Assembly: GCA_033391075.1 (NCBI GenBank)
Contig: JAWPMV010000001.1
Span: 5,456,001-5,520,000, forward strand
Direction: 5' to 3'
Origin: Bacteroidia bacterium
GTDB taxonomy: Bacteria; Bacteroidota; Bacteroidia; J057
Length of the DNA: 64,000 nt
The notes beneath the pieces are model-generated. The model was not told the origin of the DNA. It saw only the letters and a program-made list of their open reading frames with translations, and did not search any database. Shown here one piece after another: positions 45,849 to 53,677 of this stretch (position 1 is the first letter of the stretch; every line of letters begins with the position of its first letter). The position numbers and the translations under genes are program-made.

Positions 45849-46348
45849 ATACCAAGCTCAATGCAGAAGAGCGAGCTTTGTATCAAAACCCTAATGAAAT
45901 CCGACAATTACTCGGAACTGCACATACCATAGCCATGGTAGGTTTATCGGATAAACCCGAAAGGCCCAGCAATTTTGTTGCTTCCTATCTCCTTTCAGAA
46001 GGCTACAAAGTGATTCCGGTCAATCCGAGAAAAGAGGAAATTCTTGGTCAAAAGTCTTATCCTGATCTTAAGAGCATTCCGGAGAAAGTGGATATGGTAG
46101 ATATCTTTCGGGCAGCTCCTTTTTGTGGGCCGATAGTTGAGGAGGCGATAGAGATTGGGGCGAAAGCTGTTTGGCTGCAGTTAGGCATTCTGAATAGGGA
46201 TGCAGCGGCAGCAGCAAAAGCGGCGGGCCTGATCAGTATTATGGATCGCTGTGTCAAAATGGAGCATGGCCGTTATAATGGCAGCCTGCATTGGGTGGGA
46301 ATGAATACAGAAATCATTTCTGCAAAAAAAGCAAAGAGATTCTTTTAG
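45845..46348 (+). CDS. CoA-binding protein, YccU-like
   Basis: 167 residues from the ATG at 45845, which overlaps the metY stop as ATGA; the longer frame that reads into metY is less likely. It is one Rossmann-like CoA_binding domain with TIAMVGLSDKPERPSN (dinucleotide/CoA phosphate loop), VIPVNPRKEEILG and KAVWLQLGI, and the MDRCVKMEH end typical of YccU. Such proteins bind CoA or its thioesters; their cellular role is not settled. Coupling to metY suggests a role tied to sulfur amino-acid metabolism. Confidence 0.88.
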   Translation: MNTKLNAEERALYQNPNEIRQLLGTAHTIAMVGLSDKPERPSNFVASYLLSEGYKVIPVNPRKEEILGQKSYPDLKSIPEKVDMVDIFRAAPFCGPIVEEAIEIGAKAVWLQLGILNRDAAAAAKAAGLISIMDRCVKMEHGRYNGSLHWVGMNTEIISAKKAKRFF

Positions 46349-47163
46349 GCTGTTGAATTAAGCAAGACCTGGATTCTTTCTGTATGTTTTTGGTAGGCGC
46401 TTTTAAAATATTTTTGAAGCTTCTCTTCCATTTGAATTTCTCGTAGATTCATTTCCTCCAGTACACTGAAGGCTTCATATTCGTAGGTTTTCCCCTCTCG
46501 TTTGGCCTTCGCTTTTTTCCGACGAAATAAGGCCAATTGACCTTTCAGTCGTTGAATTTCCTCTTCATGAGATTGCTTGAAAGCCCGGTAGTCTCCCTGC
46601 AAGTGGCTGATCAGTTTCCCTGCCAGTGGAAGATTCTTCCATCTATTTTGCAAGGCTTCTAGCATCCGGGGAACAGGATCAGGCCGAAATTTATGCAATA
46701 TCTTCTTCAACTCTTCCTTCTTTCGCCCCCAACGCCCTATATCAAAACTATAGGTTACATTCAGTCTTCCTAAAGGCTCCGGATGACCTGAATGATCAAA
46801 TTTCCGCTTCAAACGAAGAAGTACCTCCAGCAAACCTACTTTCGTTGACTTCTGAATATTTTTGGCTTCCTCTGAAAGGTGTTTTGCCCGGCTCAACTTT
46901 TCCATGATATCAAGAACTTCTTTTTTCAGAAAGGCCCGATCTGATTCCGGAAAGCTTTTAAAGCCTTTAACCATGAAAACCTCATTTTCAAGGATTTCCC
47001 ATTTTTCAGCATAATAGGCAAAACGTTTTTTATACAGTTTCTCTAAACGGGCTGCATTACCCATAAACTTATTTGCCTCAGGTATGAGTCGCTTGATGTT
47101 GGCAAACTGATTTTCCAGAAAAATGAGCGAGGAAGTACCAAGTAGTAAGGTCGTGCTATGCAT
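46345..47163 (-). CDS. Basic helical protein of unknown function (272 aa)
   Basis: No known family is recognised. The product is rich in Lys, Arg, Glu and Leu, almost fully helical by eye, with probable coiled coil at about 185-260 (EEEIQRLKGQLALFRRKK). No signal peptide or membrane span is convincing, although the first 17 residues are fairly hydrophobic. The basic character might suit nucleic-acid or polyphosphate binding, but no motif proves it. Its 3' end overlaps that of the CoA-binding gene by 4 bases, tail to tail. Confidence 0.65.
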   Translation of the reverse strand: MHSTTLLLGTSSLIFLENQFANIKRLIPEANKFMGNAARLEKLYKKRFAYYAEKWEILENEVFMVKGFKSFPESDRAFLKKEVLDIMEKLSRAKHLSEEAKNIQKSTKVGLLEVLLRLKRKFDHSGHPEPLGRLNVTYSFDIGRWGRKKEELKKILHKFRPDPVPRMLEALQNRWKNLPLAGKLISHLQGDYRAFKQSHEEEIQRLKGQLALFRRKKAKAKREGKTYEYEAFSVLEEMNLREIQMEEKLQKYFKSAYQKHTERIQVLLNSTA

Positions 47164-47387
47164 AATACCTCATCTTACGGCAGATTTAATGTGGAGTTAT
47201 CTCCCCCCAAGTTCTTAGTTATTTCGAAATTTTCAGCCAAGCCCTTATTTATTCGCTAACAAACTGGCACATTTGTTGAAGATTTTTATATCTTGAACAA
47301 TTCGTCGATTTATTTCTTACAGCCTAAAACTCCCTTCCCGTCAGCAAAAGAGCTGGACAGGTCTATCTCTTTTAGAACTTAGACATC

Positions 47388-48497
47388 ATGGAGGATTCCT
47401 CATTTAACAAAGTACTTCAAAGAGCTATTGAAAGTTCCAAGACCGGAGTAGTCATTGCAGATTATCAATTGCCGGATATTCCTTTGATCTATATCAATCC
47501 CATTTTTGAAGAAATGACGGGCTATACGGTTGAAGAGTGTCTGGGAAAGAATTGTAGATTTCTTCAGGGTCCGGATACTGATCCGGAACAAGTCACTATC
47601 ATTCGTGAAGCTATTAAAAATGGAAAGGAGTGTAAGGTCCGTCTCCTGAATTACCGAAAAGACGGTACAAGCTTTTGGAACGAACTCAGCCTTTCCCCTG
47701 TTTTTGATGAAGCAGGAATACTTACTCACTATATCGGCATACAGGATGATATAAGTAAGGAGATCGAAAATGAGGAAAAACTAAAAACTGCGAGAGCAGC
47801 TGCAGAATCGGCGAGCAAACTTAAAACAGAATTCCTGAATATCATTAGTCACGAACTACGCACTCCTCTAACCGTCATGTTGGGAAATCTTCCCTTGTTA
47901 AAGGACCCTGAGCAAATGCCGGACAATGAAGAGGTGGCTGAAATTGCAAGTGATATTGAAGAATCGGGCCTTCACCTCCTCGAACTCATCAATGAATTGC
48001 TGGATATATCTCGCATAGAGGAAGGCAGAATGAAACTCGATAGACAAAACCTTTCTGTGAAAGATTGTCTGGAAGATGCCTTGCATCAGGTCCATCATTT
48101 AGCCGATCATAAAGGACTGGAAATAAAAATCAATGAGCAGGCTGATTTTATCTTCTTTGCTGATCAGATGCGGGTAAAACAAATCCTGATCAACCTTCTG
48201 GGAAATGCGATAAAATTTACAGATGAAGGTTTTATAGAAATTACCACGGATGTAAATGAGCAAATGGGATTGATAAGCATCCGGGATACAGGATGTGGAA
48301 TTGAGGAAAAATTTCTCCCTCATGTTTTTGATGTCTTCAGGAGAGCAGATGGTACGGTAACTCGGGCTAGAAGTGGATCTGGCTTAGGACTGGCAATTAC
48401 AAAGAAATTGGTAAATATTCAGGAGGGTAGAATAGAGGCGGAAAGTACATTTGGACAAGGAAGCACCTTCAGCATTTTCTTTCCTATTATTTCTTAA
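47388..48497 (+). CDS. LOV-domain histidine kinase (predicted blue-light sensor)
   Basis: 369 residues: one LOV-type PAS domain at about 12-125, HisKA at about 145-210 and HATPase_c at about 250-368. The LOV signature GKNCRFLQG contains the photoactive Cys56; flavin-contacting positions are also kept: Asn37 (YINP), Asn88 (NYRKDG), Asn98 (FWNEL) and Gln119 (IGIQDD). So the domain should bind FMN and form a cysteinyl-flavin adduct in blue light (family knowledge). The kinase has His155 (ISHELRTP), LLGNAIKFT, DTGCGIE and GSGLGLAI boxes. No membrane span: cytoplasmic. It starts a three-gene signalling unit. Confidence 0.92.
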   Translation: MEDSSFNKVLQRAIESSKTGVVIADYQLPDIPLIYINPIFEEMTGYTVEECLGKNCRFLQGPDTDPEQVTIIREAIKNGKECKVRLLNYRKDGTSFWNELSLSPVFDEAGILTHYIGIQDDISKEIENEEKLKTARAAAESASKLKTEFLNIISHELRTPLTVMLGNLPLLKDPEQMPDNEEVAEIASDIEESGLHLLELINELLDISRIEEGRMKLDRQNLSVKDCLEDALHQVHHLADHKGLEIKINEQADFIFFADQMRVKQILINLLGNAIKFTDEGFIEITTDVNEQMGLISIRDTGCGIEEKFLPHVFDVFRRADGTVTRARSGSGLGLAITKKLVNIQEGRIEAESTFGQGSTFSIFFPIIS

Positions 48498-48508: not shown

Positions 48509-48865
48509 ATGGAAAAACGAATCCTAATCATAGATGATGACAAAAAGGTAGCCCGTATGCTTTACCGCCGAATAAAGCGCATGGGAATTGAGCCGGTTCT
48601 AGTAAACACAGGCAAAGAAGGCCTGGAGAAAAGCATCGAGCTTGAGCCAGAACTCATTCTGCTAGACATTCGCATGCCGGGTATGGATGGCTATACAGTT
48701 GCAAAAAAGCTACGAGAAAGAGGTTATCCCGGAATCATAGTTGCCTGTTCAGCATCTATAGGAGCAAAAGAAACACAACTGACTACCGAAGCGGGCTGCG
48801 ATGATTTTATTGCAAAACCCATAGATGAACATTTTGAAAATAAGATCTTAACCCTGATTAGTTAA
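48509..48865 (+). CDS. Single-domain response regulator
   Basis: 118-residue CheY-like receiver: Asp10/Asp11 (IDDD), phospho-acceptor Asp53 (LLDIRMPGMDG), Ser81 and Lys103 (AKPI). No output domain. It starts 11 bases after the LOV kinase stop and ends 5 bases before the next gene, so the three are surely co-transcribed, and it probably shuttles phosphate between the two kinases or to an outside phosphotransferase. Confidence 0.92.
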   Translation: MEKRILIIDDDKKVARMLYRRIKRMGIEPVLVNTGKEGLEKSIELEPELILLDIRMPGMDGYTVAKKLRERGYPGIIVACSASIGAKETQLTTEAGCDDFIAKPIDEHFENKILTLIS

Positions 48866-48870
48866 AAGAC

Positions 48871-49998
48871 ATGGCCCACATCCTATTTGTTGATGATAAT
48901 CCACGAATTCTTGAAATGCTTAGAAGGCGTTTTGAGAAAATGGATCATCAGGTTTCCAGTGCGAATAATGCCGAAATAGCTGAAAATATTTTAAAAAAGG
49001 AGCTAATAGATATCATTTGCCTGGACTATATGATGCCGGACCAAAGCGGCTTTGATTTTATTCAAGACTTCCATCAAAAGGATCGAATTCCGGTAATCAT
49101 GATGACCGCCCACTCATCCATGAATCTAGCTATAGAATTCATGAAGGCGGGGGGAGCAGATTTTATAGAAAAGCCGATTGATGTAGAAGTTTTGCATATC
49201 AAAATAAACCGAGCCCTGCATAGCTTCCAACAAATCCGGGATGCCCAGGATGCCCGAGATCATTCTGAACAAGAACTCCGAAAAAGCAACCAAAAACTCC
49301 AAAAGAGACATAAGGAATTGGAGAATTTGTATGAAGAGTTGGACCAATTCACCTCTTCCGTATCTCACGAACTGAGAGGCCCACTAAGACAAATCGGTAT
49401 GCTTTCACAGCTCCTGGAAAAAAAGGGAGCAAAGTGTCTCGATAACAATGAGAAAGTGATGTTGGGCAGTATTAAAGATTCTGCGATCCGTCTTACCCAT
49501 CTGGTTAACGAATTATTGAGTTTTTCCAAGATGTCTCAGGACGATATGCAGGTTAAAGAGATCAATACCCTCGAGATGGTTCGTACGGTTGTAAATGAAG
49601 TCCTTGAGGCACATCCTGAGCAGAAACATGAAGTCGAAATAGGGGAATTACCCTTAATAGAAGCGGATCCCGTACTCATACGGCAGGTATTCATCAACCT
49701 TATCGACAACGCCCTCAAATACTCCAGTAAAAAAGACTTTTCGCAGATCGAGATTGGATGTAAACGGGGTGAGGAAGAAGAGATTTTTTATGTAAAGGAC
49801 AATGGAGTCGGCTTTGATCCCAAAATGGTTGATGAGCTGTACAAAGGCTTTCGGAGGCTGCACGATCCGGATGATTTTGATGGTACAGGTATTGGCCTGG
49901 TAAATGTCAAACGAATCATTCAGCGACATCATGGAAAAGTATGGGCGGAAAGCAAAGAAAATGAGGGAGCTACTTTTTATTTTTCACTCCCTCATTGA
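48871..49998 (+). CDS. Receiver-first histidine kinase (REC-HisKA-HATPase)
   Basis: 375 residues: N-terminal receiver domain (about 1-120; VDDN, phospho-acceptor Asp52 in CLDYMMPDQSG, Thr79, Lys101), a coiled-coil linker (about 122-160), HisKA with His166 in SVSHELRGPLR, and HATPase_c with LIDNALKYS, DNGVGFD and GTGIGLVNVKRI. The SHELRGPLR dimerisation helix resembles phytochrome-type kinases. A receiver at the N-terminus lets an upstream kinase tune this one. As third gene of the LOV cassette it is a likely second step of the light relay. Confidence 0.9.
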   Translation: MAHILFVDDNPRILEMLRRRFEKMDHQVSSANNAEIAENILKKELIDIICLDYMMPDQSGFDFIQDFHQKDRIPVIMMTAHSSMNLAIEFMKAGGADFIEKPIDVEVLHIKINRALHSFQQIRDAQDARDHSEQELRKSNQKLQKRHKELENLYEELDQFTSSVSHELRGPLRQIGMLSQLLEKKGAKCLDNNEKVMLGSIKDSAIRLTHLVNELLSFSKMSQDDMQVKEINTLEMVRTVVNEVLEAHPEQKHEVEIGELPLIEADPVLIRQVFINLIDNALKYSSKKDFSQIEIGCKRGEEEEIFYVKDNGVGFDPKMVDELYKGFRRLHDPDDFDGTGIGLVNVKRIIQRHHGKVWAESKENEGATFYFSLPH

Positions 49999-50039: not shown

Positions 50040-51065
50040 CTATCTGGCCCCAAACTCTATGTATGCTCGTAGGTCTTCCAGTTGTTGGTTGCTCATCCGT
50101 TCTAAGGGAAAATGAGGCATATAAGGTCTGTGTCCCGGTAAGGCATAGGTTCCATACCTGACTATCTGATATAGAGACATATGAGAATCCTGTGGGATCT
50201 TTTTTCGAATATGTCTCAAAGAAAGTTTGCCATGATCCAGGGTATATTTAGAAACCCCACCTTCTTTATGACAATGCAAACAAGCCAGCGTATAAATAGA
50301 TTTCCCCCTTTCCTCATCTCCTTTCAATCCATAACCTGCAATCTTATCAGGAGGTGCATCTCCAAAAGTTGCCGGAGATTTTTGCATGTAAAAACTCTTT
50401 AAGAGTTCCTTTGCATCTTGCTGCGTCCGAGTGTTTTCCGATAGATTTTTGAGGCTCTTCATTTGCTCACTATTCATTTCCAGGTCTCCCAGCTTAAACT
50501 CCAGAGACCAGTAATAAGCCAAAACTGCATCCATCTCCCAATCTTCCAGCAATCTTCCCTGTGCACACTCCGTTGCACATAGTTGAATAGCTTCTCTTAG
50601 ACTTTCCCTCGCAGGCTTTACAAACTCACCATACTTTTTATAATAATCATCATTGTACCAGCTCTCCCGATTTACAATGCCATGAAAAGTAGTTGCTTGT
50701 AGAAAGGGAAGTTGCTTTTCTATGGCATAATCCAAACGGGCTTCCGGATCACGGCTTTTTAAGTCAGGATCTTCCTGCACAAGATTATGACAGGAAGTAC
50801 ATACATAGTGCTTACTTACAAATTTGGACTTACTTCCATCCGGCCCAATCGTACGCCCTCTTTTCACAATCTCTTCCCCTCGCTGAATCAGCATATTTTT
50901 ATCTTCATTCCCGACAAGCAAACTATGGCCAGGTTTACTTTCCCCTAAATATTCAAGCACTTCCTGAACCGGGGTATCTTCATTCCAATCCGGGGGAGCA
51001 AAATTTATCAAGCCCATACCCAGAAGAGGAATTAGCAGTAAAAACACATATTTCTTTAGTACCAT
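50040..51065 (-). CDS. Exported di-haem c-type cytochrome
   Basis: 341 residues. A short hydrophobic N-terminal segment (KKYVFLLLIPLLGMGLI) serves as signal or anchor. Two haem-binding motifs are visible: CTSCH (89-93) and CLHCH (262-266). The second domain looks like cytochrome c class I, with Met residues in the GHRPYMPHFPLERMS end as candidate axial ligand. A CATEC pair (163-167) between them is not followed by His. It should transfer electrons in the periplasm. Its start lies inside the end of the DUF5777 gene (10-base overlap), indicating one operon and coupled translation. Confidence 0.88.
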   Translation of the reverse strand: MVLKKYVFLLLIPLLGMGLINFAPPDWNEDTPVQEVLEYLGESKPGHSLLVGNEDKNMLIQRGEEIVKRGRTIGPDGSKSKFVSKHYVCTSCHNLVQEDPDLKSRDPEARLDYAIEKQLPFLQATTFHGIVNRESWYNDDYYKKYGEFVKPARESLREAIQLCATECAQGRLLEDWEMDAVLAYYWSLEFKLGDLEMNSEQMKSLKNLSENTRTQQDAKELLKSFYMQKSPATFGDAPPDKIAGYGLKGDEERGKSIYTLACLHCHKEGGVSKYTLDHGKLSLRHIRKKIPQDSHMSLYQIVRYGTYALPGHRPYMPHFPLERMSNQQLEDLRAYIEFGAR

Positions 51066-51901
51066 CTTCCTTTCAACTTAAAGATCCTTGCCATGTTAAA
51101 ACCGATATGAATATCTCCATTGCCCCAGGTTCCAGCGGTTTCCGTAATGAAAAACTTCTCTATCATACCTCTGGAATTGGACAAATGGATTTGAAATACG
51201 TGCCCATTGGTTTCAATCTCAAATCCCAGAGAAAGGGACGGATGAAAACCTGTTGCCAATTGATCCTCGAAAGGATAATAATACTCCCCGGTCAGGGCAA
51301 AGTTTTTGGTAACTCTAATCCGGCCTGCAAGTCCCAATGCGAAAACATCATTGCTCTCTGCCAGAGTCGCTACATAGTTGCGATGAACCATAGAAGGCAT
51401 CAATTGAAGTGAGAACCTCTCCCCAAACTTTCGCCCAATCAAAATCTGGTAGGTGTAGAATAAACGATTTTCAAAAAATTCTCCCCGAACAGGATCCAAA
51501 TCTTCTGCTGATCGCAAAGCAATAGAGCTAAATCCTGAAATAGAAATGGGAGAACTACCTTCTTTCTGCTTGAGGAGGCGGAATTTCAGAAAACTATCAT
51601 AGGTTTTTTCAAAGGTACTTCGACCTATACCGATTGTGAGCCAGTCTGTAATGCCATAGTCAAAGCCCAGTCTCATCGTTGCCTGATCCAGCCCCCAAAG
51701 CTCTCGGGCGCCACTATTTACGGTACCAAATCTATGGGAAATGAGAAATTCAAATTCGCCGGCTCTCAGCGTTTCCAGCGAATGACCATTGATGACACGT
51801 GAGCCTCGGAATATGCCCTGAACAAAGGGACTTTCCTGAGCAAAACTCAAGGCCGGAAAGAGGCATAGGAATACAAGCCCGAGTATTGATACTTTTTTCA
51901 T
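51056..51901 (-). CDS. DUF5777-family outer-membrane beta-barrel-like protein
   Basis: 281 residues with signal peptide (ending ALSFAQ). The start of the mature part, RVINGHSLETLRAGEFEFLISHRFG, is the typical DUF5777 opening; the remainder alternates in beta-strand fashion (LTIGIGRSTF, FALTGEYYYPF, FSLQLMPS) and ends with an aromatic residue, as outer-membrane barrels do. DUF5777 genes are often next to cytochrome c and other redox genes in Bacteroidota; here a di-haem cytochrome overlaps. Function unknown; a role in electron exchange across the outer membrane is speculative. Confidence 0.82.
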   Translation of the reverse strand: MKKVSILGLVFLCLFPALSFAQESPFVQGIFRGSRVINGHSLETLRAGEFEFLISHRFGTVNSGARELWGLDQATMRLGFDYGITDWLTIGIGRSTFEKTYDSFLKFRLLKQKEGSSPISISGFSSIALRSAEDLDPVRGEFFENRLFYTYQILIGRKFGERFSLQLMPSMVHRNYVATLAESNDVFALGLAGRIRVTKNFALTGEYYYPFEDQLATGFHPSLSLGFEIETNGHVFQIHLSNSRGMIEKFFITETAGTWGNGDIHIGFNMARIFKLKGRWY

Positions 51902-52036: not shown

Positions 52037-53677
52037 TCACTTTACTAGCCCAATGAGATCAAGGCCGGCATGTATAATACGATTCTCTTCTTTCTTTGCT
52101 TCAGATTCGCTCAAGCGCCGGATACGCTTCATTCGATGCATGCTATTCCATCTACCTTGTAGCATCATGACTTTCTGCTGAGTATCAGAATCTGCTTTAA
52201 AATGTAGATACAAAAGGTCAAAAAATTCTTCTTTTCCTTTCATCAGGAGTTCCTCTGCCGTCCGCTTCAGATCTTCCACATTTTCAATTGCAGATATATC
52301 CGTCGCGGCTTTAAAGCGGAGTTCAGAGGAAGTAAAATTTAAGAACTCCAGACCATCGGGAGCCTCGGGTGCAGGCTCTTCGATAAGGATAGGAAGCATA
52401 TCTGGCAGGCGCCTATTATCATCCAGGCGTTGTCCAAGAGCCATTTGCCAGCTGATTGCAACCTCCTCGGAATCTTCGGCGGCTTTTGACCAGAACAAAC
52501 AAAAGAGTTCGGTCTCCAGGAGAGCATCCGAAACTTTGATCTCCCAATCATCGCCTGGCATTTGATAAGGATCAATGATGGAAACTCCTTCGGCTGTCAA
52601 TTGATTGCGATAATTGTCCAATGCGGAAGTATTTTCCTTAGCATAAGCCAGAAAGGTCTTTTTTATCGCCTTAGCATGAGTGGGAGCGAATTTCCCATCT
52701 TCATTATCATGAGCGGCAGCTTCAACAAGCTGTAAATTGAAACGTAGCCTTCCCAATTGGCCTTCCTCGCCCATAATTATCAGACTACCGATTGCCTGCT
52801 TTCTTTCGAAATCGGCCGGAACGAGAATTTCAAATTCTACAGATGCCGGCACGCCAAACCAAATCAGGGCCTGGGCAGATTCTTCGATCTTCCAGTTTTC
52901 AATACTCAAACGAAATTCGAGACGGCTCCTTCTCTTGATCGGCATGTTGAGGGTTTTAGCACCCTGTATGCTGGCATCAGGATCGGCCTCTCGCATCATG
53001 TCTGCTACTTCTGCCTTTTGTTCATAGAGATGGGCAAAAGCTGTGAGAAGAAACTTCTCGTTTTTCTGTACATGCTCGGGGGCAAAAAGGGAAATATTGA
53101 CAATATCTTCTTCAGTTCGGCTATCCCTACTCGCACTGGCAGATGGAGTTTCAGTGGCGGGAAGAGCTGGAGGTGCAGGAGGTTCTGAAGCCGGTTCCGG
53201 CTCGACTTCTTCCACAATTTCTTCCACACTTTCTTCAGCTGTATCATCCCATTCCTCTATAGGAGCAGATGCTTCCTCTTCCCATTCTTCCTCTTCTGTT
53301 TCCAGTCCACTTTTCTTTTCATAACGAAGCGGGGGAATATGGCTGTCATGGGCTTCGCTTCTGGATGGGGTTTTTCGTCTCCATCGCTTAAATATTTTGG
53401 AGAAAATTGAATCTCCTTTGGGTTTGGGTGGGGGTTCCGGGGAGGTCGAGCTTCTGACATGAAAAATAATCGCATTGAGCAATTGGGTAATCTTATGTCC
53501 GATATCTTTATCCTCCAATAGATCAACCAACTCATGCCTTCTCTCCATAAATTTCTCTACAGAGATTCCTTCTTTTTTCAAAGCCCTCAAAAGCATGAGC
53601 ATTTCAGTCAGTGCTTCTGAGTGCTTCTTATTCCTAATGAGCAGTCTTATTTGTCGGTATCTGGCAGAGCTGGTCAT
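52037..53677 (-). CDS. Multidomain TIR-like protein with effector-associated domain (EAD11-like), predicted conflict/immune component
   Basis: 546 residues, no signal peptide. Seen in order: an N-terminal helical domain (about 1-73), an acidic Pro/Glu-rich linker (about 75-190), a beta-sandwich module (about 192-330, starting ISLFAPEHVQKNEKF and holding ADPDAS and LIWFGVP stretches) often found beside bacterial TIR domains, a TIR-like domain (about 338-455: KTFLAYAKEN, MPGDDWEIKVSDAL, LFCLFWSKAAEDSE), and a C-terminal EAD11-like adaptor (about 470-546: LQGRWNSMHRMKRIRRL, ENRIIHAGLDLI). In TIR NADases the catalytic Glu falls in S-x-x-V-x-x-E-W; here the spot is Ser409 (VAISWQ), so NADase activity is doubtful. 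Such proteins belong to EAD-based bacterial conflict systems; assignment is by pattern recognition. Confidence 0.75.
   Translation of the reverse strand: MTSSARYRQIRLLIRNKKHSEALTEMLMLLRALKKEGISVEKFMERRHELVDLLEDKDIGHKITQLLNAIIFHVRSSTSPEPPPKPKGDSIFSKIFKRWRRKTPSRSEAHDSHIPPLRYEKKSGLETEEEEWEEEASAPIEEWDDTAEESVEEIVEEVEPEPASEPPAPPALPATETPSASASRDSRTEEDIVNISLFAPEHVQKNEKFLLTAFAHLYEQKAEVADMMREADPDASIQGAKTLNMPIKRRSRLEFRLSIENWKIEESAQALIWFGVPASVEFEILVPADFERKQAIGSLIIMGEEGQLGRLRFNLQLVEAAAHDNEDGKFAPTHAKAIKKTFLAYAKENTSALDNYRNQLTAEGVSIIDPYQMPGDDWEIKVSDALLETELFCLFWSKAAEDSEEVAISWQMALGQRLDDNRRLPDMLPILIEEPAPEAPDGLEFLNFTSSELRFKAATDISAIENVEDLKRTAEELLMKGKEEFFDLLYLHFKADSDTQQKVMMLQGRWNSMHRMKRIRRLSESEAKKEENRIIHAGLDLIGLVK

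Follow-up and report, generated by a model that had tools for sequence, protein, structure and literature searches.

The window analysed here is a stretch of 64,000 nt from the Bacteroidia bacterium assembly GCA_033391075.1 (contig JAWPMV010000001.1, positions 5,456,001 to 5,520,000 of the forward strand), in which three consecutive genes on one strand are predicted to encode a sensor histidine kinase with a LOV domain, a single-domain response regulator, and a second histidine kinase carrying its own receiver domain (referred to as the Rec-kinase). The gaps within this trio amount to 11 bases between LOV kinase and regulator, and 5 bases between regulator and Rec-kinase. We lean towards reading the trio as a single blue-light signalling module, in which signalling would fork from the LOV kinase, one branch leading to a diffusible regulator and the other to a second kinase. 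The domains, the catalytic residues, the gene order and the conservation of that order in two genera are read directly from the sequences. What deserves following is this module of three genes, which includes a Rec-kinase and has been retained in two genera. The features of the locus are as follows, in window coordinates:

47164 to 47387, plus strand: intergenic region 5' of the trio, divergent from the gene at 46345 to 47163; presumed promoter region.
47388 to 48497, plus strand: LOV-HisKA-HATPase sensor histidine kinase of 369 amino acids (open reading frame with ATG start, Pfam, structural matches).
47439 to 47753, plus strand: LOV (PAS) domain, residues 18 to 122, with the codon of the photoactive Cys56 at 47553 to 47555 (matches to solved LOV domains, model).
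47754 to 47822, plus strand: J-alpha or coiled-coil linker, residues 123 to 145.
47823 to 48023, plus strand: DHp (HisKA) domain, residues 146 to 212, with the codon of the phospho-acceptor His155 at 47850 to 47852 and an HExxT phosphatase motif.
48042 to 48494, plus strand: catalytic ATPase (CA) domain, residues 219 to 369 (Pfam, model).
48509 to 48865, plus strand: single-domain response regulator of 118 amino acids with Asp53, Ser81 and Lys103, without output domain (Pfam, residues).
48871 to 49998, plus strand: Rec-controlled histidine kinase (REC-DHp-CA) of 375 amino acids (Pfam REC-HisKA-HATPase, model).
48871 to 49224, plus strand: receiver of the Rec-kinase, residues 1 to 118, with Asp52, Thr79 and Lys101.
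49366 to 49368, plus strand: His166 of the Rec-kinase, within HELRGP and without an HExx[T/N/Q] phosphatase motif.

A LOV histidine kinase at 47388 to 48497 had been proposed in a first-pass annotation of this DNA, and its open reading frame, three domains, kinase boxes and LOV matches were all recovered. The Pfam matches (PAS_9, E = 1.4e-22; HisKA, PF00512, E = 4.6e-19; HATPase_c, PF02518, E = 1.4e-24) exclude chance, and together with the residues described below they rule out a coincidental open reading frame or a degenerate PAS domain. Against solved LOV domains, the LOV part reaches E-values down to 2.2e-41, and the H, N, G1, F and G2 boxes are intact (H155 in HELRTP, N box at 269, DTGCG at 300, GSGLGLA at 330), the HELRT at 155 fitting the HExx[T/N/Q] phosphatase motif as defined in excerpts of PMC6798134. 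Residues 8 to 366 were aligned by phmmer with SB2F1 (8a3u, E = 7.7e-54), and the same residues with YF1 (4gcz), a chimera of the YtvA LOV domain and the FixL kinase. Both proteins, its closest whole-length matches in structure and in sequence, have, like the window kinase, the order LOV, J-alpha, HisKA and CA throughout; they are engineered, whereas the window kinase is natural, and their H box reads AHELNQP as opposed to SHELRTP in the window. An AlphaFold2 model built from a 7-sequence alignment (mean pLDDT 77.4, pTM 0.56) contains a PAS fold, a long helix from 123 to 172, the second DHp helix from 180 to 211 and an ATPase fold. A Foldseek search with the whole-length model returned 4gcz first and then SB2F1, with TM-scores for the 4gcz chains of only 0.37 and 0.48, and VIA-align against 4gcz_B gave a Z of 21.7 and a root-mean-square deviation of 9.7 over 346 residues, in rows mostly governed by the kinase cores; the high deviation may reflect differences at the domain hinges. 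Membership of the HWE/HisKA2 LOV kinases was rejected, considering that only HisKA PF00512 was found and that NF052306 (blue-light-activated kinase) scored 133 bits against a cut-off of 450. Membership of the YtvA family was likewise rejected, its NCBIfam model NF052652 reaching 159.4 bits over the LOV part only, against a cut-off of 250; we take NF052652 to represent a LOV-STAS protein.

With regard to the flavin pocket, C56 is present within GKNCRFLQG together with N55, R57, Q60, R73, N88, N98 and Q119. These positions align, in the order C56, N55, R57, Q60, R73, N88, N98 and Q119, with C62, N61, R63, Q66, R79, N94, N104 and Q123 of a YtvA orthologue (that of Bacillus inaquosorum, L062), and we take them to be adduct-forming or in contact with flavin mononucleotide (FMN). 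The earlier claim that all photoactive residues are present therefore holds for Cys56, Asn88, Asn98 and Gln119; it was in error for Asn37, which aligns with Asn43 of YtvA instead of its Asn37. Opposite YtvA Asn37 itself stand Ile31 in the window kinase and Met32 in its closest relative, and opposite YtvA Thr30 stands Ala24, so that "all" is too strong a word. These two unlike positions, Ile31 and Ala24, would suit a LOV domain that senses redox or merely binds flavin, with light not being the physiological signal. We consider such a function very improbable, since the Cys and the other checked pocket residues are common to this trio and to its counterpart in a second genus (see below); many LOV-like domains of relatives are without the Cys, and its retention in both trios thus looks selected. 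The best reading of the residues is a working blue-light sensor kinase, and this natural LOV-HisKA kinase looks intact and is probably functional. A separate LOV-like domain from the same family of genomes (L009, G004) has a cysteine in GEGCWFLM, the surrounding Asn, Arg and Gln being gone, and is possibly a non-photochemical relic.

Another point against a redox or flavin-binding role is provided by the photolyase/cryptochrome family, for which three loci above the cut-off were found in this genome, two of them adjacent; the cells therefore probably meet light. One region of the genome (L152, 7764 to 12004, at approximately 1.194 to 1.198 Mb) contains three consecutive photolyase/cryptochrome-like genes, two of which pass the Pfam cut-off, the third scoring 25.9 bits against 27. 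Searches of the 9.49-Mb genome for phytochrome PHY, BLUF, rhodopsin and the photosynthetic reaction centre, PYP and the B12-dependent families not being searched, gave no match. As positive controls, PHY, BLUF and the reaction centre each matched one of 14 control genomes (Synechococcus in the case of the reaction centre), and the rhodopsin search matched 0 of these 14 but 23 of 119 class genomes, including one of the same family. Other LOV-like matches in the genome at E <= 0.001 (L002 to L004) are weak and without NCRFLQ. The heterotrophic host that had been predicted for this DNA is consistent with these searches, in which no other dedicated photosensor, rhodopsin or reaction centre was matched.

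What the LOV kinase controls had been described as unknown. The regulator at 48509 to 48865 and the Rec-kinase at 48871 to 49998 are likely its immediate partners, by which that statement is narrowed to the terminal output. The regulator adjoins the LOV kinase as in LovK-LovR-like operons. The Rec-kinase has the domain order REC-DHp-CA, with conserved Asp, Thr and Lys and intact kinase boxes; its HELRG lacks the T, N or Q of the phosphatase motif, and its phosphatase activity may therefore be weak. Its model (4-sequence alignment, pLDDT 78.2, pTM 0.44) has one helix, from 105 to 185, spanning the receiver into the DHp domain, and the top six rows of a Foldseek search with it all belong to chains of Leptospira LvrB (8vc9), with E-values from 1.4e-20 at approximately 20% identity and TM-scores of only 0.32 to 0.33. 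LvrB shares with it the order REC, helix, DHp and CA, and is presented in excerpts of PMC13269768 as the prototype Rec-controlled kinase, activated when the upstream sensor kinase LvrA phosphorylates its receiver, and such kinases as having a Rec-to-DHp helix of heptad-periodic length. The input kinase is LvrA in the case of LvrB, and in the window it would presumably be a LOV photoreceptor. Among four Rec-kinases, the K-to-H spacing is equal modulo 7 in three (65, 65 and 72) but not in the fourth.

The trio also occurs, in the same order, in another genus of this family, on contig 268 of genome G007 (JANQTF010000268.1, Bacteroidia bacterium isolate MAG_02), the identities to the window being 55% for the LOV kinase, 53% for the regulator (63/118) and 41% for the Rec-kinase. 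When 48 frames from 37388 to 60000 (22.6 kb) were compared by BLASTP with 37 frames of this 13.8-kb contig, the trio was matched, and the only match outside it was weak (77 amino acids, 25%, E = 1e-4); it is therefore the trio that was kept, not its neighbourhood. Among the 13 family genomes (G000 to G012), a LOV domain with NCRFLQ occurs in G000 and G007, and Rec-kinase matches at E <= 1e-60 were found only in these two across 22 genomes of the order (at most 89 candidates scored per genome). The conservation of a Rec-kinase gene lying only 5 bases downstream argues against a linear pair with a sink, in which the LOV kinase would serve the single-domain regulator alone, this regulator draining or returning phosphate, and the Rec-kinase would have an upstream kinase of its own. 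There is precedent for the linear arrangement in Caulobacter LovK-LovR, in which LovR is described as a phosphate sink in excerpts of PMC5964349, and the class offers repeated cases of a LOV kinase beside a lone receiver, no adjoining Rec-kinase being seen: in eight class loci of one LOV-PAS-kinase type a receiver gene comes next, and six of these genes end inside the locus and encode nothing but a receiver. A LOV kinase beside a Rec-kinase, however, recurs in L047 (1972 to 4430, Anaerolineae RH21), where the Rec-kinase follows without gap and with no single-domain regulator between. All told, we regard the linear pair as unlikely, at about one chance in a handful.

The receivers themselves bear on the same question. 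The window regulator and the receiver of the Rec-kinase are 24% identical overall. For the docking helix alpha-1, a comparison was performed in a convenience set of 167 receiver segments, reduced to 151 unlike ones (139 outside trios, trio-receiver matches set aside), in which, orthologue apart, the window regulator comes closest to the Rec-kinase receiver, and reciprocally (142 other receivers). Docking helices this alike despite 24% identity are a hint of one kinase for both receivers, and speak against the linear pair. On the kinase side, the DHp alpha-2 helix of the LOV kinase is 79% identical between the two trios, with a CA domain at 48%, and none of 28 control pairs reaches 79 (maximum 73); these controls are the 28 of 153 pairs with a CA identity of 38 to 62%, the helix limits being set at a fixed offset from the His. 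Taken together, this weak evidence from similarity, drawn from two related trios and convenience sets, is a hint and no proof of a single kinase acting on both receivers, the DHp domain agreeing in part. In a converse scheme, the LOV kinase and the Rec-kinase would both phosphorylate the single-domain regulator, integrating light with a second input. Gene adjacency would allow this, and in excerpts of PMC5964349 the Caulobacter single-domain regulator MrrA serves several kinases as a hub. The two kinases of the window, though, have unlike DHp sequences following the His (HELRTPLTVMLG vs HELRGPLRQIGM), and the DHp domain of the Rec-kinase is less conserved between trios (27/66 identical, 41%) than the regulator (63/118), which makes such convergence improbable.

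Several observations weigh against a single forked module. The receiver set is drawn from available loci and is not the full receiver complement of the genome; in it, the Rec-receiver of G007 comes only third for the G007 regulator, an unrelated receiver being second, the regulator comes sixth for the G007 Rec-receiver, and the rank falls across genera, the window Rec-receiver placing the G007 regulator 14th. The DHp alpha-1 helix of the LOV kinase, 93% identical between trios, lies inside the control range of 58 to 93%, and the 28 control pairs are built from 16 repeatedly used sequences and mostly have a higher CA identity. A fourth protein (L147) departs from the K-to-H register with a spacing of 47. 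Both models are only moderate by pTM (0.56 for the LOV kinase and 0.44 for the Rec-kinase). Promoter and terminator scans of the locus gave counts at shuffle expectation and no convincing promoter, so that co-transcription of the trio rests on spacing; a hand check 5' of the trio for a Bacteroidota-type -7 element found a best match of 5/6 with no TTG upstream. The trio was found in only two of the 13 family genomes and, complete, in one of 59 named loci, again JANQTF010000268.1, several contigs ending near the match. Rec-kinase matches in 51 of 395 phylum genomes (E <= 1e-50, best five candidates per genome) cover nearly always the kinase core only, the receiver being covered too, besides this genome, in just G163 among the rows listed.

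The trio thus looks rare among the genomes and loci searched. In Anaerolineae, two lone receivers accompany the LOV kinase of L033 and that of L069, the latter kinase being split over frames. A scan of viral contigs yielded one weak, kinase-only match among 68 candidates. An operon of LOV kinase, single receiver and Rec-kinase was not found in the open-licence PubMed Central (PMC) literature, which is weak evidence of absence given that most subscription papers are outside it; the parts are known and the combination was not found described. We take Caulobacter LovK, Brucella LOV-HK and Erythrobacter EL346 to be members of the HWE/HisKA2 group. LovK-LovR, as described in excerpts of PMC5964349, places a LOV kinase and a single-domain regulator in one operon, as here, whereas the window has a third gene, a Rec-kinase, and only HisKA by Pfam. 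Brucella LOV-HK, EL346 and Rubellimicrobium RT-HK are natural LOV kinases too, but of the HWE/HisKA2 type, to which RT-HK and its relatives are assigned in excerpts of PMC12148442.

LOV kinases as such are ordinary in this phylum, and one in a heterotroph is no surprise. A LOV-like domain at E <= 1e-28 is found in at least 37 of 395 sampled phylum genomes, this genome included (no more than 10 candidates per genome being scored), and the Cys motif is present in 27 of the 30 LOV match loci examined, from 43 match rows. A search with the whole LOV kinase matched 31 of the 395 genomes at E <= 1e-60 (best five candidates each), but a loose NCRFL-like string occurs in only two of 29 loci from it (L090 to L118), and these whole-kinase matches are therefore mostly PAS kinases and not LOV kinases. 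Elsewhere, NCRFLQ LOV kinases stand beside a REC-cNMP-HTH_Crp regulator in five of five loci: L049 (5596 to 9752, Gelidibacter gilvus), L055 (5605 to 9631, Maribacter arcticus), and L185 (4290 to 8141), L186 (1628 to 5627) and L187 (3728 to 7601), from three genomes that form part of one family of the class. In all five loci checked, the next gene encodes a Usp domain (universal stress protein), with several further Usp-like genes, judged by their N-termini, in a row at L049, L055 and L185; these loci could possibly represent a light-controlled stress regulon. Locus L184 (2268 to 5645, G080) has a LOV kinase, a lone receiver and then a receiver-bearing sigma-54 activator of the NtrC type, so that two receivers and an output through DNA binding accompany the LOV kinase.

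Regarding the linker, the spacing between Q119 and H155 is 36 residues in both trios, with only 6 of 23 linker residues identical; its length is kept and its sequence is not. This spacing is two below that of YF1 (a 2-residue gap in the phmmer alignment), that is, 7n+5 on the YF1 scale. YF1 variants of the 7n+5 register are reportedly light-repressed, and no polarity is claimed here for the window kinase. In excerpts of PMC6798134, linkers of 7n length give light-repressed YF1 variants and those of 7n+1 light-activated ones, and excerpts of PMC11164954 describe other registers for phytochrome-based kinases. According to excerpts of PMC12148442, most LOV kinases are light-activated, a generally applicable inversion pattern is not established, and RT-HK is the only natural LOV kinase with inverted logic known to its authors, a second being hinted at in Erythrobacter. 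Other LOV proteins in which an H box was found by pattern have spacings of 22, 43, 52, 52, 56, 59, 61 and 63, and eight with a second PAS domain in between have 168; no register is therefore universal.

Beyond the trio, the gene at 46345 to 47163 (minus strand), divergent from the LOV kinase, encodes a 272-amino-acid protein that looks helical and was matched by neither Pfam nor NCBIfam at E <= 0.001. On the other side, an overlapping pair at 50040 to 51901 (minus strand) encodes a cytochrome c protein and a DUF5777 beta-barrel protein; it is not claimed as a target of the trio, being convergent to it on the other strand and without match on the G007 contig. Further on, 52037 to 53677 (minus strand) encodes a TIR domain and the effector-associated domain EAD11, possibly a defence or signalling protein.

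If the trio is a forked module, the LOV domain would, as known for its family, bind FMN and form a Cys56-flavin adduct in blue light, and the resulting change would reach, via the J-alpha coiled coil, the HisKA core, which could then shift between kinase and phosphatase states, the HExxT motif being present. The LOV kinase may exchange phosphate with both downstream receivers, as the similarity of their docking helices hints. The single-domain regulator would either carry the signal as a diffusible messenger or take up phosphate as a sink, and phosphorylation of the other receiver would, by analogy with Rec-controlled kinases, tighten the alpha-S coiled coil and switch on the Rec-kinase, which, perhaps phosphatase-poor, would signal to a regulator encoded elsewhere. 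In its most specific form, which we put forward tentatively and at somewhat less than even odds, this would be a natural blue-light-gated forked phosphorelay, in which a LOV-HisKA kinase drives both a free sink or timer receiver and a phosphatase-poor, light-signal-amplifying Rec-kinase, making a light-controlled cascade in Bacteroidia without signs of phototrophy.

The LOV kinase is natural, small and apparently soluble, has the layout of YF1 and is encoded next to two likely substrates, which renders polarity, fork and cascade testable in vitro. The register rules for polarity derive, in excerpts of PMC6798134, from the chimera YF1, and regulation of Rec-controlled kinases is called largely unknown before the LvrB structures in excerpts of PMC13269768 (2026). 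If the proposed module is true, it would offer a natural YF1 counterpart for testing coiled-coil register rules, as well as light-switchable activation of a Rec-controlled kinase.
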